From a virus, in the IMG/VR virus record IMGVR_UViG_3300018418_000105, positions 1 to 27,379 of that record: a DNA stretch of 27,379 nt; one strand, given 5' to 3'. The notes beneath the pieces were generated by a model. That model was not told where the DNA came from. It saw only the letters and a list, made by a program, of their open reading frames with translations, and ran no database searches. This document shows, in pieces, positions 2,475 to 27,379 of this stretch; within the stretch, counting starts at the first letter, position 1, and each line of letters begins with the position of its first letter. Both the position numbers and the translations under genes were made by a program.

Positions 2475-2941
2475 TTAAAACAAAAACAATTCTTAAAGAT
2501 AAATTTTGGATCCTTGAAGATGAAGGTGTTCGAGTTGGTACTTTAAGTATTTCTGAAGATAAATTTATGTTCAGCGGTCCTGAAGGGACAAAATACTTTG
2601 ATAGCGAACGTGCATTAAAGAAGGTATTCGGAAACGGTGTATTCTTTAATCAAGTTAACGAAGAAATAGAATCACCTAAAGAAAGAAACGTATACGGATT
2701 TCCAACTAGTACAGATCCATATAACCCATTATTTGATGTAAAACGTAAACTTTCTTTATTTACAAAAAGTGAGCAATCAAAAAGTTTGTATTGTGCAGGA
2801 TACTTTATTATTCATTTCGAAAAAGGTTGGGTTAAATCTTTTTGTCCTAAACTAATAACTGTAGAACGTTATGAAACTCAAGGACCGTTTAAGACTGATA
2901 TTGAAATGAGACAAGCATTGAGTAAAGCAAATGCAAAATGA
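2471..2941 (+). CDS. conserved phage protein of unknown function (156 aa)
   Basis: It begins in an ATGA overlap with the exonuclease gene, with GAGG at 2459-2462 as ribosome site. The N-terminus looks like a small beta-rich domain (ILKDKFWILEDEGVRVGTLS). The second half has the distinctive motifs YGFPTSTDPYNPLFDVKRKL, LFTKSEQSKSLYCAGYFI and KGWVKSFCPKLITVERY. I recall this pattern from T4-like marine phages, annotated only as hypothetical. No nuclease, helicase or binding motif is recognised. Its place directly after the exonuclease suggests a replication/repair-era gene, which is inference from position only. Confidence 0.78.
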   Translation: MIKTKTILKDKFWILEDEGVRVGTLSISEDKFMFSGPEGTKYFDSERALKKVFGNGVFFNQVNEEIESPKERNVYGFPTSTDPYNPLFDVKRKLSLFTKSEQSKSLYCAGYFIIHFEKGWVKSFCPKLITVERYETQGPFKTDIEMRQALSKANAK

Positions 2942-3170
2942 ACCATTAAACACTTCTAGTATACAACAGTTTATATCGCAAGTAAAAAGTGCAGATATGG
3001 GCAATGCTCGAGAAGTAAAACTTAATCTTCAACAAGCAAAAAATCTAGCATATACATTAGGTATTGTTATGGCAAGGCTTGAAGGTGACCTAGAAAGATA
3101 CGTAAAAGATAATGCAGGCTCAAACGAGCCTGTAGAAGTTCGCTTAGATGGCGGATCTGGTTGGAAATAA
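2931..3170 (+). CDS. small conserved phage protein of unknown function (79 aa)
   Basis: It starts 11 bases before the end of the previous gene. The body (residues ~20-60) is predicted helical with GNAREVKLNLQQAKNLAYTL and GIVMARLEGDLERY, followed by a short charged tail ending LDGGSGWK. It resembles small helical proteins common in marine T4-like phages; a weakly similar style of protein lies at 6806. Function unknown. It is the last gene of the first unit before an intergenic gap with a late promoter. Confidence 0.68.
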   Translation: MQNEPLNTSSIQQFISQVKSADMGNAREVKLNLQQAKNLAYTLGIVMARLEGDLERYVKDNAGSNEPVEVRLDGGSGWK

Positions 3171-3194
3171 ACTACGTAGATAACCTCAAAAAAA

Positions 3195-3202
3195 GATAAA
3201 TA
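3195..3202 (+). promoter_or_regulatory. T4-type late promoter box GATAAATA
   Basis: GATAAATA is one base from the T4 late consensus TATAAATA, which is recognised by the phage late sigma factor gp55. It lies 33 bases before the ATG at 3235. By T4 spacing the transcript would start near 3208. Confidence 0.6.
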
Positions 3203-3237
3203 TATGCGTATATAATTTTAAGGAGTATACGTATATG
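3201..3237 (+). promoter_or_regulatory. RNA hairpin over the start codon of the gene at 3235
   Basis: Bases 3201-3213 can pair with 3225-3237 (13 pairs including three G-U wobbles). The 11-base loop holds most of the AAGGAG Shine-Dalgarno, and the AUG sits inside the 3' arm. A transcript coming from upstream would contain the whole stem, whereas a late transcript starting near 3208 would lack about half of the 5' arm. This is the arrangement known for T4 gene e and a few other T4 late genes, where early read-through RNA is translationally silent. Confidence 0.5.
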
Positions 3238-3528
3238 AGTAGGCCAAAACCCACCGTATTGCTAGAACACATAGATAAAAAGACCTATAGGGCCGAACAA
3301 GTCCTAGATGCAGAAGCCATCTGGGCTGTGTTCTACAACGGCAAGCCTTTCAATCTTAAGAGCTTGAATTCAATTACAAATTATCCAGGACCTAAATATA
3401 AAAAGGTATCATTCTCTAATCCCGGACACGCACATAACCTTGCAAAGAAATTAAACGACATGTTTAATACTGATGAATTTGCGGTATATAAGTTATCGCA
3501 AGGTGAATTAGAAATAGAAGAGCAATGA
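3235..3528 (+). CDS. conserved phage protein of unknown function (97 aa)
   Basis: Clear start with TAAGGAG at 3219-3225 and a late promoter box upstream. The protein is compact and probably globular: SRPKPTVLLEH at the N-terminus, IWAVFYNGKPFNLKSLNS, then NYPGPKYKKVSFSNPGHAHN and a helical AKKLNDMFNTDEFAVYKL. I recall near-identical motifs in T4-like cyanophages without assigned function. The promoter suggests late expression. It overlaps the next gene by ATGA. Confidence 0.78.
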   Translation: MSRPKPTVLLEHIDKKTYRAEQVLDAEAIWAVFYNGKPFNLKSLNSITNYPGPKYKKVSFSNPGHAHNLAKKLNDMFNTDEFAVYKLSQGELEIEEQ

Positions 3529-3905
3529 ACTGGAAAGATACGTATACAAAAATATTCTTAAATCAGCTAGGTAAAACATCAAACGATATTACAGTTAAAG
3601 AATATTTGCCGTTATGGTGGAAGAATACTAGAGAAGCAGGCGGACTAAGATTAACAGACGCCGGATTTGATGTATTAACTGAAATAGAACTAGCAACATA
3701 TGAAATTCCTTTTCCAAAAGATATGCCCATAACTACACAAGTTATTATCTTTTTAGACAACTTTATTGATTGTCCTTATTACCTTAGTAATAGAGCTATA
3801 CATGTAACAAGCGAAAAGAAAGCAATGGAATTGCACCTTTTTAGCGGAGATCTACGTAAGTATGGACTAACTAAGGCTATGAATCGCCAAGAAAAATCCA
3901 AATAA
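3525..3905 (+). CDS. conserved phage protein of unknown function (126 aa)
   Basis: It starts in an ATGA overlap with the previous gene, so the two are probably co-translated. It contains WWKNTREAGGLRLTDAGFDV, which looks like a small helical or winged-helix-like element. This is followed by YEIPFPKDMPITTQVIIFLD, NFIDCPYYLSNRAIHVTSEK and a basic tail. No catalytic residues are recognised. It is the last gene before the promoter of the MoxR ATPase. Confidence 0.72.
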   Translation: MNWKDTYTKIFLNQLGKTSNDITVKEYLPLWWKNTREAGGLRLTDAGFDVLTEIELATYEIPFPKDMPITTQVIIFLDNFIDCPYYLSNRAIHVTSEKKAMELHLFSGDLRKYGLTKAMNRQEKSK

Positions 3906-3920
3906 AATTATCAAAAACAC

Positions 3921-3960
3921 TTGACATTTAACTTGTAGAGTGTATACTATATGTATAGTA
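3921..3960 (+). promoter_or_regulatory. sigma70-type promoter with an inverted repeat over the -10 box
   Basis: TTGACA (3921-3926), 16 bases, TATACT (3943-3948). An inverted repeat TACTAT (3945-3950) / ATAGTA (3955-3960) overlaps the -10 and the predicted transcript start, where an operator would sit. The same arrangement recurs at 5129-5168. It lies 37 bases upstream of the MoxR ATPase start. Confidence 0.75.
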
Positions 3961-3997: not shown

Positions 3998-5083
3998 ATG
4001 GAAAATGTAGCAACTCGCACTGTAAGCCCGAACTCGGCAAAAAATAGCATTAAACATGCACTTAAGAAAAAACGTCCGATCTTCCTATGGGGTCCTCCAG
4101 GAATTGGTAAATCGGATATTGTTCACCAAATTGGTGAATACATGGAAGCATATGTAATTGACATTCGTTTGTCATTATGGGAACCTACTGACATTAAAGG
4201 TATTCCATATTACTCTGCAAACGATAACGCAATGGTATGGGCTGCTCCAGCAGAACTTCCAACTGCTGAAATGGCAACAAAGTATAAAAACATTATTTTG
4301 TTCTTAGACGAAATGAATTCGGCAGCGCCAGCAGTACAAGCGGCAGCATATCAGTTGATTCTTAACCGTAAGGTAGGACAATATGTACTACCAGACAATG
4401 TTCTTATTGTTGCGGCAGGTAACCGTGATGCTGATAAAGGTGTTACATATCGTATGCCGGCTCCGTTAGCTAACCGATTTGTTCACTTAGAACTTGCAGT
4501 TAACTTTGATGACTGGTTCCAGTGGGCTACTGAACATAGAATTCACAGAGATGTTGTAGGTTTCCTACAATTTAGTAAAAAAGATTTATACGATTTCGAT
4601 CCTAAGAGCCCAAGTCGTTCATTTGCAACGCCTCGTTCTTGGTCGTTTGTGTCAGAATTGCTAGAAGATGACCTAGACGAAAGCGCAACTACTGATCTTG
4701 TATCAGGTGCTATTGGCGAAGGTCTTGCAATTAAATTTATGGCACACCGAAAAGTAGCAAGCTCTATGCCTAACCCAACTGATATTTTGGAAGGTAAAAT
4801 TAAAGAGTTGAAACAGACAGAAATCAGTGCTATGTATTCCCTCACTGTTTCACTTTGCTACGAACTTAAAGAAGCATCAGATGCAAACGATAAAAAGTTT
4901 GACGACAAAGTTAACAACTTTTTACGATTTGCAATGGATAACTTCGAAACTGAATTGGTTGTAATGGGCATGAAACTTGCACTTACACAATATTCACTAC
5001 CAATCGATCCAGACGAAGTAGAATGTTTTGATGAATTCCACGAGCGTTTTGGCAAGTTCATTAAGGCTGCTCAACAGTCTTAA
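3998..5083 (+). CDS. MoxR-family AAA+ ATPase (361 aa)
   Basis: AAA+ ATPase of the MoxR/AAA_5 type. Walker A is GPPGIGKS (residues 32-39), Walker B LFLDEM (101-106), sensor 1 AAGNRD (N142), the likely arginine finger PLANRF (R160) and sensor 2 TPRSW (R213). The ~150-residue C-terminal region is helical and not recognised. MoxR proteins work with von Willebrand A-domain partners as chaperones that remodel or help mature protein complexes, and the gene at 5190 encodes such a partner. Start supported by GAGGG (3984-3988). It has its own sigma70-type promoter and a terminator after the stop. Similar ATPases occur in some marine T4-like phages; their substrate is unknown to me. Confidence 0.9.
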   Translation: MENVATRTVSPNSAKNSIKHALKKKRPIFLWGPPGIGKSDIVHQIGEYMEAYVIDIRLSLWEPTDIKGIPYYSANDNAMVWAAPAELPTAEMATKYKNIILFLDEMNSAAPAVQAAAYQLILNRKVGQYVLPDNVLIVAAGNRDADKGVTYRMPAPLANRFVHLELAVNFDDWFQWATEHRIHRDVVGFLQFSKKDLYDFDPKSPSRSFATPRSWSFVSELLEDDLDESATTDLVSGAIGEGLAIKFMAHRKVASSMPNPTDILEGKIKELKQTEISAMYSLTVSLCYELKEASDANDKKFDDKVNNFLRFAMDNFETELVVMGMKLALTQYSLPIDPDEVECFDEFHERFGKFIKAAQQS

Positions 5084-5189: not shown

Positions 5190-6491
5190 ATGAGCGTAGC
5201 GGGCACTAAACTTTGGCAACCAGATCCTAATATTACTCCTGAAGAACTTGAAGTAATGCGTGTTGATGTAATGGAACGTATTATTATTGCCCGAGTTGGC
5301 TTATTGTTACGTCATCCATTCTTTGGTAATATGGCAACTCGTTTACGTATTATGGCAGCAGATGATTGGTTACCTACTGCCGCAGTAGATGGTCGCAATT
5401 TATATTTTAATACACAATTCTTTAATGCAATGTCAAACAAAGAAATTGAGTTTGTTATTGCACACGAAATTCTACACTGCGTATTTGATCACTTAGGACG
5501 TCGAGGCGATAGAGATCCTATGTTATTTAATATTGCCGCAGATTATCTTGTAAACAATATTCTTGTAAGAGATAGAATTGGTGAGAAGCCTAAACTTGTT
5601 GATTGTTTCCAAGACTTTAAATATGATAAGTGGAGTGCTGAAGAAGTTTACGACGATTTATACAAAGAAGCAGAAAAGAATGGTAAAGAATTCTTAGAGC
5701 AACTAGGTGAGTTGTTAGACGAGCACTTAGAAAGTGAAGGCGATGATGGCCAAACTTCTGACAACGGAGAAGAAAAAGATAGTAACGGTAATGCTGTAAG
5801 TAAGAAAAAACCAAAGTACTCAAAAGAACAGCTTCAAAAGATCAAAGACGAAATTAAAGAAGGCATGATGCAGGCAGCACAAGCCGCAGGTGCAGGCAAT
5901 GTTCCAGGTGAGGTTGCTCGTATGATTAAAGAGTTAACTGAACCTAAAATGAATTGGAGAGAAATTCTTCAACAACAGATTCAAAGTACAATTAAAAACG
6001 ATTTTACTTTCCAGCGTCCTTCACGCAAAGCGTGGCACACTGGTGCAATACTTCCAGGTCAGAATTTTGACGAAACTATTGATATTGCTATTGCACTTGA
6101 TATGTCAGGTTCAATTGGTAATGCACAGGCACAAGACTTCTTAGGTGAAGTTAAAGGTATTATGGATCAATACAAAGACTATAATATTAAAATTTGGTGT
6201 TTTGATACTCAAGTTTACAATGAACACGATTATAGTGCAGACGGTGGCGAAGACTTACTAGACTATGAAATTATGGGCGGTGGTGGCACCGACTTTATGG
6301 CGAACTGGGAATACATGAAAGAACAAAATTATGTTCCTAAAAAATTCTTAATGTTCACAGATGGATATGCCTGGGATAGTTGGGGCGATGAAGATTATTG
6401 TGATACTGTATTCTTAATTCATTCACACCATGATAAAAACATACAGGCGCCTTTTGGTACTACTGTACACTACGAGGAAGCAAGTGCATAA
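5190..6491 (+). CDS. putative metallopeptidase-like plus VWA-like domain protein (433 aa)
   Basis: Two-domain protein of the DUF2201 type. The N-terminal half has HEILHCVFDH (residues 92-101), an HExxH zinc-binding signature with a further His, inside a peptidase-like helix pair. A charged linker (~155-230) is rich in Asp, Glu and Lys (SEGDDGQTSDNGEEKDSNGN). The C-terminal half (~295-433) is a von Willebrand A-like fold with metal-site motif DMSGS (304-308), GGGGTDF (363-369) and FTDG (389-392). In bacteria such proteins pair with MoxR ATPases, as here with the gene at 3998. Start chosen at ATG 5190 with AGAGGA (5176-5181). Whether it is proteolytically active or a pure adaptor cannot be told. 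Confidence 0.87.
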   Translation: MSVAGTKLWQPDPNITPEELEVMRVDVMERIIIARVGLLLRHPFFGNMATRLRIMAADDWLPTAAVDGRNLYFNTQFFNAMSNKEIEFVIAHEILHCVFDHLGRRGDRDPMLFNIAADYLVNNILVRDRIGEKPKLVDCFQDFKYDKWSAEEVYDDLYKEAEKNGKEFLEQLGELLDEHLESEGDDGQTSDNGEEKDSNGNAVSKKKPKYSKEQLQKIKDEIKEGMMQAAQAAGAGNVPGEVARMIKELTEPKMNWREILQQQIQSTIKNDFTFQRPSRKAWHTGAILPGQNFDETIDIAIALDMSGSIGNAQAQDFLGEVKGIMDQYKDYNIKIWCFDTQVYNEHDYSADGGEDLLDYEIMGGGGTDFMANWEYMKEQNYVPKKFLMFTDGYAWDSWGDEDYCDTVFLIHSHHDKNIQAPFGTTVHYEEASA

Positions 6492-7969: not shown

Positions 7970-7994
7970 GATAAATACTAATAACAAATAAATA
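7970..7994 (+). promoter_or_regulatory. late promoter boxes before the tail-fibre gene
   Basis: GATAAATA at 7970-7977 and AATAAATA at 7987-7994, both close to T4 late consensus TATAAATA. The first gives a 38-base gap to the ATG at 8016, the second 21. The ribosome site is AGGAG at 8002-8006. The first box is the better candidate by sequence and spacing. Confidence 0.6.
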
Positions 7995-8015
7995 TGTTAT
8001 CAGGAGTTAACTAGA

Positions 8016-9674
8016 ATGGCATTACAGATCAGACGTGGCACAGATGCTGAACGTACCGCAGGCGGTGGTGTAGTATTCGCCGAAGGCGAACTTATATATG
8101 TAACTGACACCGACGCACTATACATAGGTGACGGTTCAACAGCGGGCGGTTTAAAACTTACAGACAGCGCAGGCGCAGTATTAGGAAGTTATATTACTGC
8201 TGACACAATCAATTCAACAATAGATTTACAACAAAACTTAGACCTTAATGGTAACGATATTATTGGAACAGGTAATATTAACATTAACGGAACAGTTACA
8301 GCAACAGGCAACATTAACATCGGTGACGATGCTAACACCGATACTGTAGACTTTACTGCAAAGATAACAAGCTCTTTAACTCCAAACGCAGATTCTACAC
8401 ATAACATCGGTGCAATGAATGCACGTTGGAATAATGGTTACTTTACTGGTTTAGTTGTTGACGGACAAGTAGATGCAGTAGCAGTAAATGCAGATGTAGT
8501 TGCTGATAATTCGTCTGTAATGGTAGACGTAAGTGCTAATGAATTTAATGGCAACTTAACTGGCGATGTTACAGGTAATGTAACTGGTGATGTAACTGGT
8601 AACGTTACAGGTAATGTAACTGGTAACACAACAGGAACCCATACAGGTGATGTTAAAGGTTCTGTATTCGGCGACGATAGCACCCTAATTATTGATGGTA
8701 TTAATAATACACTAATTGGTAATTTAACAGGAAATGTAAGTGGTGATTTAAGTGGCTATGTTAGATCAGCAAACGAAACAATTATTCTTAATCCAGGTAC
8801 CGACGGAACTAATGCTAACTATATTGGTACAGTTCAGGGTAATGTAACTGGTAATGTTACAGGCGACTTAACTGGTGATGTAACTGGTAATGTTACAGGT
8901 AATGTAACTGGTAACACAACAGGATATCACACAGGTGATGTTACAGGTTCAATATTTGCAGATGATTCTACATTATTAATAGATGCAGTCGGAGGTACTA
9001 TTTCTGGATCAGCAATTACAGGTACTGTTACTGCTACATTTGTCGGCGACATAACTGGTAACATTACTACTAATACTATTGATTCTGCAGATTCAAGTGA
9101 AGTTGCAGTAGTTCCTACGTTTAGAGCAAACTCAACTGCATTTATTGATCAAGAATTATTTATTGGTTCTCCTAGAGATACAGGAGGCACACCATTAAAT
9201 CCACAAACACATATTACTCCACTTGTGTTTCAAAACTTTGACTCACTTGCAAGAACCGGTGCAGTATATACTAATACATTAGCATCAAACGATACTAATC
9301 CTCTTATTAGTTTAGAAATACAATCCGGTGTTACTTGTAATTATGACTTAGCCGTTCTAGGTGAAATGTCAAACACAGATGGCGGATTAGTTGTATCCGG
9401 ACGTGACGGCGCTTCAACACTAGCACAAATAGTACTAACACAATATAATGGTACTATTGGAGTTGAAGCAGAAGAAGACGACGATAATAACTATACAACA
9501 CAAGCAATTATTAACAACGATGTAGCAAACTTTATTACTATGCCTGTTAAGTTTGCTAACATGGATAGTACTACTAGAGACGGTTTAACTGCTGAAGCAG
9601 GTATGGTTATATTTAATACTACAACTACTAAACTACAAGTTTATACAGGTAGTGCGTGGGAAGACTTGCATTAA
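8016..9674 (+). CDS. tail-fibre-like structural protein with TGNVTG repeats (552 aa)
   Basis: The N-terminus (MALQIRRGTDAERT, FAEGELIYVTDTDALYIGDG) matches the short attachment domain found at the head of many phage fibres and tropism proteins. The shaft contains LTPNADSTHNIGAMNARWNN, a common fibre motif, and two blocks of Gly-Asn/Asp-Val-Thr-Gly repeats (residues ~179-212 and ~275-311). Each block is followed by a related segment with GDDSTLIID or ADDSTLLID. The C-terminus GMVIFNTTTTKLQVYTGSAW is also typical of fibre tips. Probably a trimeric receptor-binding or accessory fibre. It is on the + strand, opposite to the main structural block, and driven by a late promoter. Confidence 0.85.
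   Translation: MALQIRRGTDAERTAGGGVVFAEGELIYVTDTDALYIGDGSTAGGLKLTDSAGAVLGSYITADTINSTIDLQQNLDLNGNDIIGTGNININGTVTATGNINIGDDANTDTVDFTAKITSSLTPNADSTHNIGAMNARWNNGYFTGLVVDGQVDAVAVNADVVADNSSVMVDVSANEFNGNLTGDVTGNVTGDVTGNVTGNVTGNTTGTHTGDVKGSVFGDDSTLIIDGINNTLIGNLTGNVSGDLSGYVRSANETIILNPGTDGTNANYIGTVQGNVTGNVTGDLTGDVTGNVTGNVTGNTTGYHTGDVTGSIFADDSTLLIDAVGGTISGSAITGTVTATFVGDITGNITTNTIDSADSSEVAVVPTFRANSTAFIDQELFIGSPRDTGGTPLNPQTHITPLVFQNFDSLARTGAVYTNTLASNDTNPLISLEIQSGVTCNYDLAVLGEMSNTDGGLVVSGRDGASTLAQIVLTQYNGTIGVEAEEDDDNNYTTQAIINNDVANFITMPVKFANMDSTTRDGLTAEAGMVIFNTTTTKLQVYTGSAWEDLH
8589..8924 (+). repeat. 48-base direct repeat within the fibre gene
   Basis: 8589-8636 and 8877-8924 differ at one base by eye, are 288 bases apart (96 codons, in frame), and each encodes DVTGNVTGNVTGNTTG. 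They lie in larger repeat blocks (8550-8660 and 8838-8950), pointing to an internal duplication of about 96 codons. Confidence 0.85.
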
Positions 9675-17431: not shown

Positions 17432-17439
17432 TATTTATT
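17432..17439 (-). promoter_or_regulatory. possible late promoter box AATAAATA
   Basis: On the - strand AATAAATA overlaps the stop codon of the giant gene, 18 bases before the ATG at 17413. This is close for a promoter and one base off consensus, so it may be chance in A+T-rich DNA. Confidence 0.3.
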
Positions 17440-20400
17440 TAGGTAACTCAGTTGTTGCTCCACGTATGAATTCTGCAATAGAATTTTTTGCATATCTTAA
17501 TTGTTCTCCTGGGTTTTGCCACAATTTGCCTATTTTTCTTACAATAAGCACCCTACTATTTGCTTCAGGAGAGTTTAACAATGTAATAATTGCAACATTG
17601 TCGTCAGTAATAGTAAGTTCAAATTCCGGAGGTAATATAGTATCGCCCTCCGGACTGTCTTGGTTTATAAAGTCTTGTATTAGATTGCCGTCGGAATCTA
17701 CTTTTTGGAATTGATAAGCACTAATAGCATTCTTACGTAATCTCTTACCACTTACAAAAACTTCAAATTCGTCTACTCCCTTTGTAGGAATCCAATCTAA
17801 AACTATTTGTGTTGACTCGTCCTCTAACTTAATTAGTGTAACCATTTCGTCAGTATAAGGAATAGACTCAGTTATTCCCTGATCCATTATTTCAGTACCT
17901 GCAATATACGAAAGTTTTGGACTTGTTCCGAGTGTGCCTCTTCTTAACTGGCTTACTGTATTTCCGTCAACTTGGAAATATTCAATTCTTTCACCATCTA
18001 TGAATAATACACCCGGAATATTAAGTTCTGTACTAGGTAAAGTCAATCCTGTTGCATCGTCTAGCTCAATAACTTTATCAGTTATACCTAATGGCTGTGC
18101 TAAAAGATATACTTTATCTTGGTTTAGACGCTTGTAGTGTGTCCTATTCAGCATATCTTTAAACATTCTATAACCAAACTTAGCGTTAGTCTTAGATCCT
18201 GCAAAGTGTATAACCTGTATTCTATCATCCGGTTCTACTTTTCTTATAATTTGAACATACTCGTCCATCTTTGAAAGTCTATAATCAACATTAGGTGTAA
18301 GCAGTTCACCGTTTAGTGTAACCCACAAGTACGCTGTACTTATCGCAGGTTGTCTTAGTTTTATTAGGCCATTATTTAACCTTCTAAAGTCATAATAATC
18401 ATCAGTTCCAGCAACTAAGTTTCCTTGTGCTGCATTAACTCTTGTTTCAATCTGCAAATCTTGGATATCATGTTTGCTAAATTTATAAATTACAATTTCT
18501 GCGTCTTGAGCCGGTATATCATTGAGTACTATGTTATCACCTGCTTCAATTAATGTAACACTAAGCATGTTATTAGATATTGCACCGCTTTCGGTTCCTT
18601 CTACTGGTATGCTTGGATCGTCATCAAATTGCTCTACTAACTCAGGATATGGTCCAATTAATTCTAATCTATTATTATTATAAGTTTTTACTGTAGCAGA
18701 AATAATTGTACTATCGCCTGTACCTATTTCAACTGTTTCGCCAGGCACAAACGACCCGTTTACATTTGCTAAAATTACTTCTGTATTTTGAGAGAATGAA
18801 TATTCACTAGTGTAAGGAACAAATATTTCTAAATCGTCGCCTATTTGCCCTACGTTGTCAAATAATACAACCTGAGTATTTGCAAAGTCCCAACGATAAT
18901 CTGTTAATAATCCTAGTTTTTCACCGTTAATATACACATCTACTTGGTCTGGACTCAATGTACTAGGTCCAAACTGCGCACTATCTAATGGATACTCTCT
19001 TCCTGATTCAATAAACCAATGCTGTGTATATCCTGGATACAATATTTTGTTATCAACTCTAACAACAATATTATGACTTAATGGCAATTTACTAAACGGA
19101 GCAGGATCTGTATTAAATATTACAGTACTTCCGTCACCAATATGTTTATCTATTGTAATTTCACTATAAGATGTTATGCCAGAAACAGCATTTGTTGCGT
19201 CAAATAACGAATAGTGTATAAATGAATTAGCTGGCGGTGCAGTTACAAATCTTAAGCCTAGCATACCGTTATCTGTTTCATAGATACTAGCACTAGCATT
19301 TACACCGTCAATTGTTATATACGAAGATAAATTCTCTCTATAAACTACATTAGTAATAAACTCTAACTTCTCGCCTGTTCCAGTAAAGGCCGAAATATCA
19401 ATTAATGCTTCGCCGTTGTCTCCGATTGACGAAATGTTAATTCTGTCTCCTACTGTTAACGGATTATTCATAACAACTTTATTTTCAACAAAGTTAATTT
19501 CGTAATCCTCGTCTACTTCTAGTATAGATCCGTTTACTTTAACAATAACTGCTTGTTTATTATGCGGTAATGTTTCTAAGAAAAATTCTTGATTAATATT
19601 TGCAGTTGCAGTATAATTTCTTGTTGTAATTAGACTGCTTCCATCTCCTGCACGATCGTAAACTTTCATATCCAATGTGTCAAGTAATTGTCCTGGAACT
19701 AATTCTTCCGGTCCTGCCGATGTAGTTGGAGTAATAAAGCCATCGCCGTCAATTGTAATGTCTGCTGCATCTAACCCTGTAGCAGTACCATATGCAAGAT
19801 TTCCACCTTCGATCAAACTATCAAAACCAGAAGCAGGTAAGAAACTACCGTCTGATGATGCTTTTCTAATTACTACTACTTGATCTTTAGGTGCTTCAAA
19901 TGCTGTATCAGTATAGTATTCTTCAAATTCTTCAACATTTTCTATTACAACAAAATATCTAGGATTACCATCGTCGTCAATGTCAGTTACATAACTTGAT
20001 TCTTCAGTAGTAACTGTTTTCATTATTGCGTTTGGATTTCCTAAAGCAACTATAGTAACGCCGTCTTCTGCAAGATAAGTTCTAGTACTACCGTCATAGT
20101 TAACATCGTCAACTCGTATACCATTAATGTAAACATTATACTGTTCACCTGCTTCTAACGGCTTGCTTAGTTGAAATCTCTTAGTGCTACCGTCAGTATA
20201 AAATGTTTCATCTTCAAAGTTTTCGTCATACGTATCCCAGGCTGATGTATACCAAGGTTGAGAATCAAATCCTAAATCAGAACCAAATTCAAAAGACCTT
20301 ACTTCTACTCCACCGTAGTCTACACCAGACATTAACTGTCCTAAATCCTTACCATACTGACCTGTTTCAGGATTGTATAACGTATTAATTCTATCTGCTG

Positions 20401-23400
20401 CATTTAATAAATTATAGCTCTTGTTATATTCAACACGTATAACTGTTCCTACAGGTTGAGCCTGTGTTAGTGTAATATAACCCAATTGTCTAGTGTAAGT
20501 TTTAGTACCTTGTTTCTGCTTTATAGTTTCATTATTATAAGAATATTCACTACTTAGTGCTTCAGTCCCGTCAAAGAAAACTTTAATGTTTGCTCTAGTT
20601 AAATCCATTGGCCATTTTAAAGTTAGTTTAAGTTCAATGCCGCCACTTGTGAATTCTTCAACTTCGGATAAGTTTAAAAACTCGTAGTTAGGCGAAGTTC
20701 TATCAAACTTTTGCGTAATACTATAATGTTTAACTTTATTATTACCTAGTATAACAGAAAGTCTAGGCTGTAATCCGCCATCTTCTTGTGTTCCAACTAT
20801 TTCTACAGAAGGAGGACTAGTGTATCCAGATCCTGGATCAGTGATAACTATTGACTTAACACTTCCGCTACCAATAAATGCTTTTGCCTTTGCTCCGGTT
20901 CCGCCACCGCCTGATATAATTACATTAGGAACTTGAGTAAATCCGGTTCCGCCATCTTGTATTTCTATTGCTTCAACTTCAAATGTAAAATTATCAAGCC
21001 AATGTTTTGCTGGATATAATGTTTCATCAAAATTTATTCCAATAAGTACTCCGTCTTGAATTGCAACTTCAGGAGCAACAATCTTGTTTAATTCCTTATC
21101 ATAGAACGGAGCAAGATCAAAATCAGTGGTAACACTCTGAGTATTATCAATTGTATCGTACGATGATAGATATTCACGTATTTTAGCTTTATAAGGTTTA
21201 ACTTCGTTTACATAATCTTCGTAACTTTCTAAGTTATCATTTTGGAATGTAGTACGTTGTTCTAATGTTCCAACATTATGTTTTGCTTTAATAAAGCTGG
21301 TTTTAAATGCCCAGTCTACATAATTCTGTTCTGCAAACACATAGCGTAAACTTGCAAAGAATAGTTGATTATATTCCTCCGCTAACTCATCTACAAAAAT
21401 ATCATCTCTAATTGTTTCAATAATCTTTCTTAATTCGACTGCATTATCATCTTCGAGATATAATTTAGATAAAAATTCAATTGTGCCGCCTTCACGACCA
21501 ACTGTTCTATAACCTGTACTAAGATCAGGAGAATCTAGATTAACAATTTTTTCAAGTAATATCCATCCACCGGAACCTACATTTGAGATTTTAATAATAT
21601 CGCCTAAATCATCATTTAACCCGCTTAGTTGATAATAATCATCTATTAAAAAGTCTATGCCTGTTAACGCACTGTAACCAGTTAAATACCAATCTTTATA
21701 TTTCCAAAACTCAGATACATCATAGTATTGTTTATTTGTAATAGACCAAACTCTTGTATCTGGATTCCAACCGTAAATTGTCCAACCTCCGTTATTAGTG
21801 CTATCTGCACGTACAAGAACACTTAACGGTCTTACAGTAAGTGTAAGACTATCGGTGTAGTTTGTGCCGCCATTAATAATTTCAACACTTGTAATAATAC
21901 CTAAATTATTTAATATCGGTTTTAGTTCTAAGTTTTCACCTGTACCATTAATTTTAATAGTAGGTGCTATTCTATATCCTCGGCCACCATTAACTATAGT
22001 TACACTAGTAATTACACCATCTTCGATTACTGGCTGTAATATAGCTGTTGCAGCACGTACTGTACCAACAAACTCTAATTCTTGCTCAGTATCGATAGCA
22101 GTATCATAATGCCCGGAAATAAAAGTCGGAACAGGATCTTTTTCAAATAATTTTGTTGTGTCAAAATTATCTAATATAAGTTGATCTTTAAGTACTCTGT
22201 TAACTCTTTCTACATATTGTTTTAATGCTTCTTGTCTATTTACAAACCAGCTTTGTCTCGGTCTATTAAGAGATCCGTATTTTTGTTTTACACTTAACGT
22301 TGGATCAGGCACAGGTCTATGATATTTGTCAGAACCTATTAAACTATCAATCCATTTATCTTCAATTACACTCTTAGGCTTACTTGTACTCAGACCTTCC
22401 GAAATAATTTGATATTCATTATGAATATTATTTTCTTGATTATCGATTGTCCAATAACGGAAATTAATTGCAACATCTGAGTCTGAAAGACTCTTATTAC
22501 AATTATATAAAATAAATCTATCATTACCAAGAATAGTAACAAATTTAAGTCGCTGACCTGCTGGATCTCTAATAATATTTGCAACATCATATGAACTACG
22601 GCGTCTACTTTCTATATCAGGAGTAACTCGCTTGTTCTTGACCCAGAAATAATATTTCTTAACAAATCCCTGACTTATAGGATCGTATACATCTTTTTCA
22701 ACATATTTAGAAGTTCCGTACTTAGAAGTTCCGCTTATTCCTCTTGCTGAGCCAAGGTTTGTATCTGCACGTTGATCCCAAACATCAGGAGCTATATTAC
22801 TTTCCACCCACTCATAAACATCAATAGATGACCCAGTAGCCAACGATCCCCAAACACTTTGAGAATATATAACACTGCCTTGATTATAATCTACATACTT
22901 GACTGTGCTTAAATCCCACCATAGTTCTCCTACTTGCTTTTCGCCCCAGGTAGTATATTTTGTTTTCTCTGTTTGATTTCCTACATTATAAAATGCTGGA
23001 TCAAAATATGTCTTGTAGGAAAGTTCTTGCTCAGCAAGGCCTGAAATTTTTCCTGCAACAGGATCGATTATATCAAGTCTTGAAAGTAATAAATTTGTTT
23101 TAGTGTTGTATATAAACGATCCTCTAAATTTGTCAACTTCGGGTTGATCAATCGGGCTTCTTATTACGTTCCATATTTTTTGATCTTGTTGTCTATGATA
23201 AACTGCGACTTTACCAGGGCCGCTGCCATTATTAATTGTTGGTAACCCAACATAGATTTTATTATTTTTAACAAGTACATCCTTGCCAAAATTAACAACA
23301 CTAAAATCAGTATATTCTAAACGTTGACCGTAAACTAACGAATTGTTTATATTTTCGTAGATATAAACAACACCGCTGTCTACTATACGTTTTGCAAATT

Positions 23401-26400
23401 TAGTAAACCCTTTATCAAAAATAGTTTCAACTGGTGATAACGGACTATTAGGATCATTAACATATCTGCCAAGGGTATTACTAGTATCTTGGAACCTATC
23501 ATAGGTTGTGTCTAATATAATATCACCTCTTGCACTTGTTACTACTAACTGATTTCCGTCAAAACCAAGATTTATTCCAAAACCTTCTGTCTGTTCCTTA
23601 TTAGGACTATTAAGTATTTGACTTTGCTGGTATGTACCGTTTACATTTTTATAGACATACACTCTACCTTGATACGGTTGATCAGCGTCTGTGTTAGGTG
23701 CTCCTACAGCAATAATATTTCCGTCATCAGAAACTACAACAGACTCTCCATAACTTCTTGCTTCCAAAGGAGCATCAAATTCTTGTATAATTTCAAAGTG
23801 AGAATTTTTAAGTCTGTATATGACTAGTTTATTTCTGTCGCTGTATTCTGCAATCGTTGCTAATATATTTCCAGAATCACTAATATCAAATGTTCTGCCA
23901 TATGCTGTAGTTGTTAAGTCAGCAATACTTTCAATGTCACTAGGTATAACTAACCCTGTGGTATTAGGCAAGTATCCTATAAAGTCAACATGGTCACCTA
24001 AGACTTTCCATTTATTGCTATTAAATTCTTCAGCTTGTATATTTGTAAGTGCTCTATAAAATACATTGTTGTATACTACTATTTGATCTTGATAATAATC
24101 TGAAACATTACTGTAAATACCTTTAAAGTTAGTATCTCTACCAACTGTCCAATTGTAAGTTTTTCCGTAAATGTCAGTACCATTAACAACAAAATACAAT
24201 CTTCCTCTACCTGGATTTGTAGTAATATCGTTAGTATGCGTTTCTTTGCTGTTTATTACTAACTTATAAAAATCTCCAGATTGAATAATTTTTAAAGAAG
24301 ATGCTAGTTCTCTACCTTCTTCTCTATTAGGAAGAATAAATCCGTTAATAAAATTATATCTGTCAAGTACATCGTCTTTTTCATATACGAAAAATGCACC
24401 TTCTCTTACAACTTCACTAGCTGTCCTATTTGTATTAATAGGAATATTATCAACTTCTTCCCAGTCATTATTTGAATTACTAGGAACCAATGGTGTTCTT
24501 GGAAGTCCAGGTTTGAATTCTTCTATCCAAGTTAAATATTCAATGCCAGATATAAATTCTGTTTCGTAGATACCTATTTCATCTGAAACATTTGCATTTA
24601 ATGGCAAAATAAATCTCTCAGGCAATGGAAGTTGTTCTGTATGTTGGAAAACTGCTATTTTACCTATATCAGAATCTGCAAGCTGTCGTGATTCTGTAGT
24701 TCCTATTCTTCTTAATTGTCCGTTACCTTCATCCTTATTAAGATACATTGAAGTAGGAGCCAAACCATCAATATATCTAGAACCAAAGCTAAAATCACCT
24801 GTAACATTCTTTACATATATTCTTGCTTTATCGAGATCTCTTTGATAAAGCACAACTTCTGCTGTTGCCCCGGTAGTTCCTTCACGAACAATATCCCCCG
24901 GAACTAAATCTATCTCAGCAAAAATATCATAGTCAATATATCCATCCCATAAATCTACCGGTACTTGAACCTTGTTAATTATATTGTAGGGATTATCGCC
25001 AAATCCTTTTGCAGATAAATCAGGTAATGTACCAGATGTACCAGGAATGTCGTTTAGCCAAACTCCAATATAAGGAGATGGCGATTGAGGATCATTAAAC
25101 GCCGAAGTTGCTTTATCTGAGACATTTTTAGGAAGTCTAACTATCCATCTATTATCCAAAAATGTCTGTGTTCCGGCACCAGCAATACCTCTAGATTGGT
25201 GACTTAACACTCTAACTATATCTGTTTCTTTTTGGAAGGGCTTGTCAACACCTGCTAGAATTTCTACAGGTATTTCATATCTAGTATCTATAGAGTTTTT
25301 ATAAGGTAATATGTCTACACTTTCGTGCCATGTTGCATCTGGATTTGAAAAAGTATTAGGATCAAAATTATTTTTTATATCCTTAATAACAAGTCCGTGC
25401 CCATTATCTGTTATTATACCATTTGGATTGTAATTAAATCCTGTTGCAATTTCCCAATAGCCGCCTAAAATAGAGCTTCGGTCTACTGGCTCGTGTAAAG
25501 GTCTTGTATATTCTCCAATTAAGAATGTATCATTAATATATAAAGTTCCTGTTTCTTCAAAAATACCATTTTTATCGTTTGCGTATACAACAAGACGACC
25601 TAGTTCATTTTTTACATAAACAACAGTAGCATTACCTGTTGGTGTTGTTACTGTATCTCCTGCAGAGACACTCGGAATGTTTAATGGATCTACGACATAA
25701 AATACTTCTTCGACTTTTCTTCTAATAGTATGAACATTAGTTTCAAAGAAAGTTTTATCAATACCTGGCAATTTATTATTAAACGGCTTATTAATTTTTC
25801 TTAGAAATCCGTTAAAATCTCCGCCTAGAGGATTTGCTAACTCTCCAGAACCTAATCTAGGACCTATAGGCTCTCCACTAAACCCTATATTAGGATTAAC
25901 AGGAAGTGTTAAATCTTCATCGTAGTATATCTCTAAATAATCATTGCCTAAAACTTTTACAAAGAATTTAACATTTTCTAAACCCTTAACACCTTCTTGT
26001 TCTAAAGTATCAAAAGGAATATTAGGATCACTATTATCAAACTGATCTACAAGAATTGTAATATTATCGTTAGGAACATCAGTAATGATTATTTCATCGT
26101 TATCCTCTAAGTTATGAGCTGTATCAGTAATTAGTTTCATCGGAGATGCTGATAAATCTATACCAACAATCGAAACTTCTGAAATTGGATTATAGTTATG
26201 AGAAATGTTATCCCATCCTAAATATAATCTATCTCCTATATTACTTCCTTCATAAGCATCTATAGGAGCTCTTACAAGAATATGATCTGTAGTCGTATCT
26301 ATTAGAGGTACATCACCTGTTGCTAATAGTTTAATATCTGTATAATCGCCATACAATTTGTATAGTTCAGAACGCCACCTACTTGCACTATCAAATGTTC

Positions 26401-27379
26401 CAAAGACAACATTGTCTGTCCTTGCTTTTACTGTTCTTCTTGCTTTATAAAGGCTGTTATTATATTGAACTATAGAACCTCTAGTATAATTTGAACTTAA
26501 ATTAAAGTTATCTTTATATGCACTTTTTACATATGTTGAATTAGGTGCTCCTACAATTAAATATTTTCCATCTGGAGACATAGTAACAGCTTCGCCAAAT
26601 TTACTACTTCCTGCTGAAAAGTTTTCTGTAGGTTGAATTGTTTGTACTAACGAAAGAGTTCCATTTACAGTGCTTCCGTCATCTTCTCGTTTATAAACAT
26701 AAACTTTTCCGTCTCCGTCTAACGGTGAACCAACAGCAACAAATGTTCCATCATCTTGCGATGTAATACTTTCACCATAACTTTGATCTGTAATAGTTGG
26801 ATTAACTAAGTCTTCGTCGAAGTTATACGATCCTTCTGCTTTAATTACATTCCATTTTCCAGTTAATGTATTATCTATATTATCAATCCACAGTAACTCT
26901 CCAGGATCAATATTATTTTCGGCATACTGGTTAGAATCTGTTAGAGTTGCTACACGATTAGAAACAAATTTAGTTATTGTACCTGACAATCCAGTTTCTT
27001 CTTGTGTTAAAGATGCTTCACCTAGTTCTATAGTTACTTGATTAAGTTCACTCGAGACTACTTTATAAAATCCGTCTATATCTACAACATCTATAATACC
27101 TATAATATCACCTTCTACAAAGTTTGATAACTTGTCTAGTGTAAGTATTGCTGTAGTGCCAAGTGGCGTTGCTGTTGTAATTCTAAATTGTGTACCTATG
27201 TGCTTATAAACATTCCATTCTTGGCCTTCAAATGTAACCCAAATATAATCTCCTTGTTTTACTTCTTGCAAATCAAGTGTTAAAATGTCATCTTTATTTT
27301 TTACAGTCCATTGTACGTCACTTTCTCTGACATATCCTGCTGTCTTAAATGCACTATCTGCTCTATATTTGGTAGGGAA
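17435..27379 (-). CDS. giant virion structural protein, N-terminus outside the window (>3,314 aa)
   Basis: The frame is open to the right edge; the first candidate start inside (TTG at 27271) is not needed, since the 36 codons before it read GYVRESDVQWTVKNK-type coding sequence. Parts in order (residue 1 = edge): EGQEWNVYKHIGTQF-type beta domain (~37-120). FG-GAP-like repeats at ~199-290, then a ~870-residue insertion flanked by RGSIVQYNNSLYKARR and YQDQIVVYNNVFYRAL (carbohydrate-binding-module-like), then five more FG-GAP-like repeats (~1157-1447). A Trp/Tyr-rich segment (WGEKQVGELWWDLSTVKYVD). Two GG.GY..PP.V.I stretches (~1785-1850 and ~2135-2195). About eight beta-sandwich repeats with V.VNG..L...DY (~2247-3275), and a GERIEYF...QLRRGTLGT segment (~3120-3150). 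Probably a tail or baseplate-associated fibre; exact role unknown. Confidence 0.85.
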   Translation of the reverse strand, partial: FPTKYRADSAFKTAGYVRESDVQWTVKNKDDILTLDLQEVKQGDYIWVTFEGQEWNVYKHIGTQFRITTATPLGTTAILTLDKLSNFVEGDIIGIIDVVDIDGFYKVVSSELNQVTIELGEASLTQEETGLSGTITKFVSNRVATLTDSNQYAENNIDPGELLWIDNIDNTLTGKWNVIKAEGSYNFDEDLVNPTITDQSYGESITSQDDGTFVAVGSPLDGDGKVYVYKREDDGSTVNGTLSLVQTIQPTENFSAGSSKFGEAVTMSPDGKYLIVGAPNSTYVKSAYKDNFNLSSNYTRGSIVQYNNSLYKARRTVKARTDNVVFGTFDSASRWRSELYKLYGDYTDIKLLATGDVPLIDTTTDHILVRAPIDAYEGSNIGDRLYLGWDNISHNYNPISEVSIVGIDLSASPMKLITDTAHNLEDNDEIIITDVPNDNITILVDQFDNSDPNIPFDTLEQEGVKGLENVKFFVKVLGNDYLEIYYDEDLTLPVNPNIGFSGEPIGPRLGSGELANPLGGDFNGFLRKINKPFNNKLPGIDKTFFETNVHTIRRKVEEVFYVVDPLNIPSVSAGDTVTTPTGNATVVYVKNELGRLVVYANDKNGIFEETGTLYINDTFLIGEYTRPLHEPVDRSSILGGYWEIATGFNYNPNGIITDNGHGLVIKDIKNNFDPNTFSNPDATWHESVDILPYKNSIDTRYEIPVEILAGVDKPFQKETDIVRVLSHQSRGIAGAGTQTFLDNRWIVRLPKNVSDKATSAFNDPQSPSPYIGVWLNDIPGTSGTLPDLSAKGFGDNPYNIINKVQVPVDLWDGYIDYDIFAEIDLVPGDIVREGTTGATAEVVLYQRDLDKARIYVKNVTGDFSFGSRYIDGLAPTSMYLNKDEGNGQLRRIGTTESRQLADSDIGKIAVFQHTEQLPLPERFILPLNANVSDEIGIYETEFISGIEYLTWIEEFKPGLPRTPLVPSNSNNDWEEVDNIPINTNRTASEVVREGAFFVYEKDDVLDRYNFINGFILPNREEGRELASSLKIIQSGDFYKLVINSKETHTNDITTNPGRGRLYFVVNGTDIYGKTYNWTVGRDTNFKGIYSNVSDYYQDQIVVYNNVFYRALTNIQAEEFNSNKWKVLGDHVDFIGYLPNTTGLVIPSDIESIADLTTTAYGRTFDISDSGNILATIAEYSDRNKLVIYRLKNSHFEIIQEFDAPLEARSYGESVVVSDDGNIIAVGAPNTDADQPYQGRVYVYKNVNGTYQQSQILNSPNKEQTEGFGINLGFDGNQLVVTSARGDIILDTTYDRFQDTSNTLGRYVNDPNSPLSPVETIFDKGFTKFAKRIVDSGVVYIYENINNSLVYGQRLEYTDFSVVNFGKDVLVKNNKIYVGLPTINNGSGPGKVAVYHRQQDQKIWNVIRSPIDQPEVDKFRGSFIYNTKTNLLLSRLDIIDPVAGKISGLAEQELSYKTYFDPAFYNVGNQTEKTKYTTWGEKQVGELWWDLSTVKYVDYNQGSVIYSQSVWGSLATGSSIDVYEWVESNIAPDVWDQRADTNLGSARGISGTSKYGTSKYVEKDVYDPISQGFVKKYYFWVKNKRVTPDIESRRRSSYDVANIIRDPAGQRLKFVTILGNDRFILYNCNKSLSDSDVAINFRYWTIDNQENNIHNEYQIISEGLSTSKPKSVIEDKWIDSLIGSDKYHRPVPDPTLSVKQKYGSLNRPRQSWFVNRQEALKQYVERVNRVLKDQLILDNFDTTKLFEKDPVPTFISGHYDTAIDTEQELEFVGTVRAATAILQPVIEDGVITSVTIVNGGRGYRIAPTIKINGTGENLELKPILNNLGIITSVEIINGGTNYTDSLTLTVRPLSVLVRADSTNNGGWTIYGWNPDTRVWSITNKQYYDVSEFWKYKDWYLTGYSALTGIDFLIDDYYQLSGLNDDLGDIIKISNVGSGGWILLEKIVNLDSPDLSTGYRTVGREGGTIEFLSKLYLEDDNAVELRKIIETIRDDIFVDELAEEYNQLFFASLRYVFAEQNYVDWAFKTSFIKAKHNVGTLEQRTTFQNDNLESYEDYVNEVKPYKAKIREYLSSYDTIDNTQSVTTDFDLAPFYDKELNKIVAPEVAIQDGVLIGINFDETLYPAKHWLDNFTFEVEAIEIQDGGTGFTQVPNVIISGGGGTGAKAKAFIGSGSVKSIVITDPGSGYTSPPSVEIVGTQEDGGLQPRLSVILGNNKVKHYSITQKFDRTSPNYEFLNLSEVEEFTSGGIELKLTLKWPMDLTRANIKVFFDGTEALSSEYSYNNETIKQKQGTKTYTRQLGYITLTQAQPVGTVIRVEYNKSYNLLNAADRINTLYNPETGQYGKDLGQLMSGVDYGGVEVRSFEFGSDLGFDSQPWYTSAWDTYDENFEDETFYTDGSTKRFQLSKPLEAGEQYNVYINGIRVDDVNYDGSTRTYLAEDGVTIVALGNPNAIMKTVTTEESSYVTDIDDDGNPRYFVVIENVEEFEEYYTDTAFEAPKDQVVVIRKASSDGSFLPASGFDSLIEGGNLAYGTATGLDAADITIDGDGFITPTTSAGPEELVPGQLLDTLDMKVYDRAGDGSSLITTRNYTATANINQEFFLETLPHNKQAVIVKVNGSILEVDEDYEINFVENKVVMNNPLTVGDRINISSIGDNGEALIDISAFTGTGEKLEFITNVVYRENLSSYITIDGVNASASIYETDNGMLGLRFVTAPPANSFIHYSLFDATNAVSGITSYSEITIDKHIGDGSTVIFNTDPAPFSKLPLSHNIVVRVDNKILYPGYTQHWFIESGREYPLDSAQFGPSTLSPDQVDVYINGEKLGLLTDYRWDFANTQVVLFDNVGQIGDDLEIFVPYTSEYSFSQNTEVILANVNGSFVPGETVEIGTGDSTIISATVKTYNNNRLELIGPYPELVEQFDDDPSIPVEGTESGAISNNMLSVTLIEAGDNIVLNDIPAQDAEIVIYKFSKHDIQDLQIETRVNAAQGNLVAGTDDYYDFRRLNNGLIKLRQPAISTAYLWVTLNGELLTPNVDYRLSKMDEYVQIIRKVEPDDRIQVIHFAGSKTNAKFGYRMFKDMLNRTHYKRLNQDKVYLLAQPLGITDKVIELDDATGLTLPSTELNIPGVLFIDGERIEYFQVDGNTVSQLRRGTLGTSPKLSYIAGTEIMDQGITESIPYTDEMVTLIKLEDESTQIVLDWIPTKGVDEFEVFVSGKRLRKNAISAYQFQKVDSDGNLIQDFINQDSPEGDTILPPEFELTITDDNVAIITLLNSPEANSRVLIVRKIGKLWQNPGEQLRYAKNSIAEFIRGATTELPK

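Follow-up and report, generated by a model that had tools for sequence, protein, structure and literature searches.

The 97-aa gene treated here starts inside a hairpin that overlaps its own late promoter. In the phage DNA that was analysed (the window, the whole stretch of 27,379 nt), it is likely, with a probability of roughly 0.83, that this arrangement is a translational lock of the T4 e/soc/49 type, which would confine the 97-aa gene, and probably a coupled 126-aa gene, to late translation. The hairpin at 3195-3237, first described in an earlier note on this DNA, is confirmed. The features that bear on it are as follows.

1350-1378, + strand: sigma70-like candidate early read-through promoter, TTGACA-17-TACAAT with TG before the second hexamer (11/12 consensus matches)
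2931-3170, + strand: last ORF of the upstream gene run, 79 aa, no family match
3195-3202, + strand: T4-type late promoter box GATAAATA, from the sequence; invariant or nearly so in relatives
3201-3213, + strand: 5' arm of the stem, TATATGCGTATAT; 3201-3207 lie upstream of the predicted +1 and would be absent from late RNA
3208, + strand: predicted late +1, a G (box start + 13), from leader G conservation and box+13 calibration
3214-3224, + strand: loop of 11 nt with the AAGGA of the Shine-Dalgarno (sequence, fold)
3220-3225, + strand: Shine-Dalgarno AAGGAG, its last G alone outside the loop
3225-3237, + strand: 3' arm of the stem, GTATACGTATATG, with the AUG at its end (sequence, fold, covariation)
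3235-3528, + strand: 97-aa gene behind the hairpin, shared by jumbo phages and hundreds of viral contigs
3525-3905, + strand: 126-aa gene (phrog_15638), its ATG overlapping the stop of the 97-aa gene (ATGA)
3921-3948, + strand: sigma70-like promoter of the next operon, TTGACA-16-TATACT, kept in relatives

The stem has 13 pairs (3201-3213 with 3225-3237), including three wobbles (3201-3237, 3206-3232 and 3213-3225), and the ATG occupies 3235-3237. The earlier note had given the coordinates, the wobbles and the AUG in the 3' arm correctly. It also placed the end of the late box rightly at 3202 and the Shine-Dalgarno mostly in the loop, where all of AAGGAG except the last G is found. This stem is the minimum-energy fold of 3180-3260 (-12.4 kcal/mol). 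By itself it is weak, with a z of -1.83 and 10 of 200 shuffles folding equally well. With 15 nt of coding sequence, opening the region from the Shine-Dalgarno to the AUG costs 8.7 kcal in read-through RNA vs 3.8 kcal in late RNA, and opening the AUG alone costs 2.8 vs 0.1 kcal; with 35 nt of coding sequence the gap between the two RNAs is smaller (9.1 vs 7.3 kcal). The claim that late RNA escapes the stem holds in part. The full stem would be lost, but escape is partial in the window member because its late leader, starting at 3208, retains six inner pairs (3208-3213 with 3225-3230).

The lock would work in two stages. RNA reading in from the upstream sigma70 operon would carry both arms, and in this RNA the AUG and part of the Shine-Dalgarno would be folded into the stem so that ribosomes could not load. 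A gp55-type late sigma factor would then direct transcription from G3208, inside the 5' arm. This late RNA would lack the outer seven nt of the 5' arm, leaving the AUG free and the 97-aa gene open to translation. We infer the start site, the read-through transcription and the translational effect of the lock, as well as its reason, namely that an early product would be harmful or useless.

The late start near 3208, inside the 5' arm, stands as proposed earlier. The position is a G, and a G is found at the predicted +1 in 59 of 60 close leaders. Ten ORFs of at least 60 aa (in G001, G002, PA5oct and G007) have their ATG exactly at box+13, whereas nearby ATG offsets average about 1.3 ORFs (P ~1e-6). 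Purines peak at box+13 of other late promoters, with A in 97 of 155. From the box+13 ATGs and the purine peak, G3208 is therefore well supported as the predicted +1, and the late promoter is placed such that a transcript from this position would miss part of the 5' arm. Of 14 relatives searched, 13 encode a late sigma factor of the gp55 family; the window itself is a fragment of 27 kb. ATAAATA sites are rarer in the window than expected by chance (six vs 16), and all except the one at 9164 lie directly before gene starts, mostly those of tail or virion-like genes.

Several late genes appear to be of a leaderless type. These genes have the ATG at box+13 and no Shine-Dalgarno: L274:9805-11166, L274:15417-17345, L275:17541-18323 and L271:13232-13474 in G001, L259:9600-9938 and L265:908-1144 in G002, L284:6386-7252 in PA5oct and L318:5565-6326 in G007. 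Several encode virion proteins (tail tube, head proteins). They apparently give leaderless late mRNAs, and the members of the L265/L271 pair are homologous, so the leaderless state appears to be conserved. In the window, positions 7970-8016 hold two late boxes, GATAAATA and AATAAATA, 17 nt apart before a 552-aa tail-fibre-like gene. Its downstream box falls within the loop of a short ATAACA/TGTTAT repeat, and only the first transcript would hold this repeat, in part. On the minus strand, 17435-27379 form one open frame of 3314 codons or more, which adjoins tail and virion genes and runs off the contig end.

Read-through RNA would come from sigma70-type promoters upstream. Sigma70-like matches overall show no excess over shuffles in the window scan. 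About 1.8 kb upstream of the 97-aa gene, 31 of 44 relatives have a sigma70-like site (vs 4.8% of shuffles), and before the ATPase operon such a site is present in 81 of 98 relatives vs 8 of 1960 shuffles (0.4%). No + strand terminator was found between the 2931-3170 ORF and the late box.

The ATGA overlap of the 97-aa and 126-aa genes is kept in 89 of 105 relatives, and the 126-aa gene is therefore probably translationally coupled and under the same lock. The operon behind the promoter at 3921-3948 encodes a MoxR-type ATPase (at 3998) and a DUF2201/VWA protein (at 5190). In a protein search, hundreds of relatives of the 97-aa product were found in IMG/VR. The best 80 of these hundreds were used for the close group, and searches seeded with distant members added 171 loci. 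Named jumbo-phage relatives are Sinorhizobium phage Phosso (67% identity), Pseudomonas phage PA5oct and its kin (57%), Agrobacterium phage Atu_ph07 (50%) and Salicola phage SCTP-2 (46%). Gene order is partly conserved in these phages: DNA-metabolism genes (in relatives, exonuclease, DNA polymerase I, glutaredoxin or metallophosphoesterase) are followed by the 97-aa gene and then the ATPase. A nucleotide search of the phage collection with the window gave no match. The 97-aa window protein has no PHROG, and other members give scattered weak matches only. For the family, Pfam SspH stays below the cut-off (best E-value: 0.0011; 9 of 44 members) and a PDB sequence search gave no credible match.

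In relatives the two arms of the stem are kept as pairs through compensatory changes. In about 100 leaders of the 97-aa gene the GATAAATA box runs into the 5' arm. The leaders of the 80 close relatives (the best 80 of hundreds) keep GATAAATATAT and both arms; box and arms are almost invariant in this group, yet the arms change together. ATGCGT is paired with ACGCAT in 55 leaders, ATACGT with ACGTAT in 19 and ATGTGT with ACACAT in one. In 76 of 105 leaders the 3' arm matches its own 5' arm as an exact complement, compared to 43.2 expected when 5' arms are dealt randomly among leaders (2000 trials; maximum 55). Because loop length varies, the 3' arms are misplaced when leaders are simply aligned with MAFFT, and an alignment-free complement test for the 3' arm was used for the pair counts instead. 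On a tree built from the DNA of the coding region, nine independent pairs, all on supported branches, have different 5' arms; in 7.6 of them the 3' arm changes in step, and in none does it do the opposite (median sign-test p 0.008; 13 of 15 over all branches). A tree of the 97-aa gene alone gives two such supported pairs, whereas the longer stretch gives the nine. The stem is thus maintained by selection through compensatory changes, and the covariation is so strong that it can be taken as evolutionary proof that the stem exists.

Some relatives also carry direct copies of the arm. L031 and L078 repeat the 5' arm as a perfect 12-nt copy, TGCGTAGTTAAT, about 32 bp before the arm itself, and shorter copies occur in several others, with a slight overall excess (longest common substring of at least 8 in 4.8% vs 0.6%). 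The upstream repeat was considered as part of the lock and rejected.

Folding across the family was assessed as the cost of opening the region from the Shine-Dalgarno to the AUG in two RNAs, one with its 5' end 45 nt before the box and the other with its 5' end at box+13. The stretch missing from late RNA was dinucleotide-shuffled as the control. By this measure the start site is hidden in read-through RNA throughout the family and far less so in late RNA. The read-through minus late difference has a median of 6.2 kcal vs 2.2 kcal in shuffles (165 distinct leaders), and 85 of the 165 show an excess with p <= 0.05. Late RNA mostly costs 1-5 kcal to open vs 8-15 kcal for read-through RNA in most relatives. 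For other late promoters (155 late-box genes from five relatives and the window, a set that contains the 97-aa gene itself and is conservative in this respect) the excess is about zero; it is above 3 kcal in 17% of them vs 61% of the family (Mann-Whitney U p = 1.6e-17). When each 70% identity cluster (about 20 in all) contributes a single representative, the median p is 7e-4 and the worst draw gives 0.027. Among the 153 leaders in which no terminator was detected, 32 show little excess, including those of Phosso and SCTP-2. The window leader by itself is non-significant (3.2 kcal, p 0.12), since its late RNA still has the six inner pairs. The same score recovers T4 e, 49 and I-TevII. T4 soc shows no read-through excess, and the score is therefore imperfect and has false negatives. 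As in the T4 locks, read-through RNA is calculated to form a stem that pairs the Shine-Dalgarno, the AUG or both. The earlier statement that such RNA would form the stem agrees with the minimum-energy fold of the window and with the family's excess relative to both shuffled sequence and other late promoters.

Distant relatives have stems without sequence likeness. These are CACCAATCTTTAA/TTAAAGATTGGTG in L157, ACCTCTTTT/AAAAGAGGT in L147, TGCGATTTC/GGAATCGCA in L160, TATGTTTAATCT/AGATTAAACATA in L173, CTCCGTAT/ATACGGAG in L155/L211 (the L155 type has a variant late box, GGTAAATA), ACCTCGCTG/CAGTGAGGT in L101 and TTCGATAAATAAA/TTTATTTGTTGAG in Atu_ph07. In each case the 3' arm lies on or beside the Shine-Dalgarno or start codon, while all or part of the 5' arm precedes box+13. 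Other leaders have an intrinsic terminator before the box, as in PA5oct, the L104/L106/L110 group, L125-L127, L141 and others. The read-through hypothesis predicts that leaders with a terminator lack the hairpin, and most of them do: it is present in 5 of 18 leaders with a terminator vs 105 of 146 without (Fisher p = 3.6e-4, from a small table whose statistics ignore relatedness). A loose terminator scan gave false sites and a stricter one was used, in which some doubtful sites remain.

In three freshwater relatives of Atu_ph07 (L089, L090 and L094), the ATG of the 97-aa homologue is at box+14 and there is no Shine-Dalgarno. Their late mRNA would have almost no leader, which may be a third route to late-only expression. 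In L107 and L123 the late box of the 97-aa gene is embedded in a long inverted repeat with a T-rich end, which resembles a terminator lying across the promoter. Different lineages may insulate the 97-aa gene by a hairpin of freely changing sequence, by a terminator or by a leaderless late mRNA lacking a Shine-Dalgarno, with selection keeping the logic and not the sequence; the odds on this broader reading, which extends to a large clade of jumbo and marine phages related to T4, are about even. If it is true, early production of the 97-aa protein would harm the phage.

The inverted repeat could instead be a DNA dyad, that is, an operator bound by a protein regulator of the late promoter. It overlaps the promoter, a DNA palindrome would covary too, and some leaders carry the extra direct arm copy about 32 bp upstream. 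Such an operator is nonetheless very unlikely. The distance between the arms varies between 6 and 19 nt and shows no helical period, unlike a dimer site, and single departures from pairing are G-U in 10 cases vs A-C in 3 (p = 0.046), which fits RNA only. Furthermore, the unrelated stems of distant relatives still put the 3' arm on the start site, and the repeat tends to be lost alongside an upstream terminator, which an operator would not predict.

The hairpin might also tune translation in all transcripts, as a constitutive damper, a translational repressor site or a temperature sensor. The six pairs kept by the window's late RNA, which costs 3.8-7.3 kcal to open, would suit this, as would the inner pairs kept in some relatives. 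We regard it as unlikely, however, because the late leader folds little in most relatives, the portion of the arm that is lost is the portion covering the AUG, and the distant 5' arms lie wholly or partly upstream of the predicted start, so that late RNA could not form those stems. Chance folding of an A/T promoter box beside an A+T-rich ribosome-binding site would agree with the window's own figures (the fold z and the opening-cost p of 0.12). The case against it rests on the relatives and not on the window fold: covariation on independent branches, the excess over shuffles and other late promoters, and recurrence with unrelated stems leave chance an extremely improbable reading that is strongly disfavoured already. 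Arm covariation and the calculated, read-through-specific sequestration of the start site instead support a translational lock, which would give the late-only translation suggested by the earlier note.

The probable lock marks an uncharacterised 97-aa gene as timing-sensitive, which is a testable lead to its function. The read-through minus late opening cost also offers a general sequence-only test for such locks, and in these phages it picks out an endolysin gene and virion genes. Strong read-through-specific stems precede the late genes at L318:8764-9258, L318:13316-16192 and L327:14826-15188 (G007) and at L303:17169-17684 and L303:1651-2031 (Atu_ph07). These genes encode an endolysin, a tail sheath, an S-adenosylmethionine decarboxylase, a virion protein and a protein of 127 aa that has a hydrophobic stretch close to its start.

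Locks of this kind are already known. That the e-type lock is established in T4 gene e and a few other late genes, as the earlier note stated, is borne out by the literature: T4 e, soc, 49 and I-TevI have published start-site structures, and the long early transcripts of e are translated about 100-fold less (PMC3014915). In the papers searched beyond the T4 reviews, the leader element of the 97-aa gene was not found described, and the Atu_ph07 paper contains no discussion of promoters; deep conservation of the lock at this gene appears to be unreported. The split ribosome-binding site of T4 genes 25/38 was ruled out as a parallel, since the spacing of Shine-Dalgarno and AUG is normal here (9 nt) and the AUG itself is paired.

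The closest layout is that of T4 soc, in which TATAAATA stands directly before the CATGTAATT arm, able to pair with AATTACATG (from the sequence). As in the window, the Shine-Dalgarno is in the loop, the AUG in the 3' arm and box+13 inside the 5' arm, whereas the gene, the phage lineage and the stem sequence differ. The likeness is one of layout and literature (PMC3014915), with soc itself lacking a read-through excess. At T4 e, long early RNA also forms a stem over the start, and late promoters in the region of its 5' part let late RNA escape (PMC3014915). However, e has two late boxes and a paired Shine-Dalgarno, whereas the window has one box, a Shine-Dalgarno mostly in the loop and a paired AUG; e is a lysis gene, and the 97-aa gene, as far as can be told, is not. 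T4 49 (endonuclease VII) has a late box within the 5' arm, where AATAAATACCCTTA can pair with TAAGGGTTTATT beside the AUG (from the sequence). It is a strong case by the opening-cost score and differs in gene and phage lineage. At I-TevI of the T4 td intron and at Aeh1 mobE, a hairpin likewise hides the ribosome-binding site on early or middle read-through RNA (PMC3014915), but these are homing endonucleases in or near other genes, and their lock protects intron splicing or limits the nuclease. The T4 lock has been described in a few genes of coliphages; in the present family a single gene retains that logic across phages whose genomes reach half a megabase.
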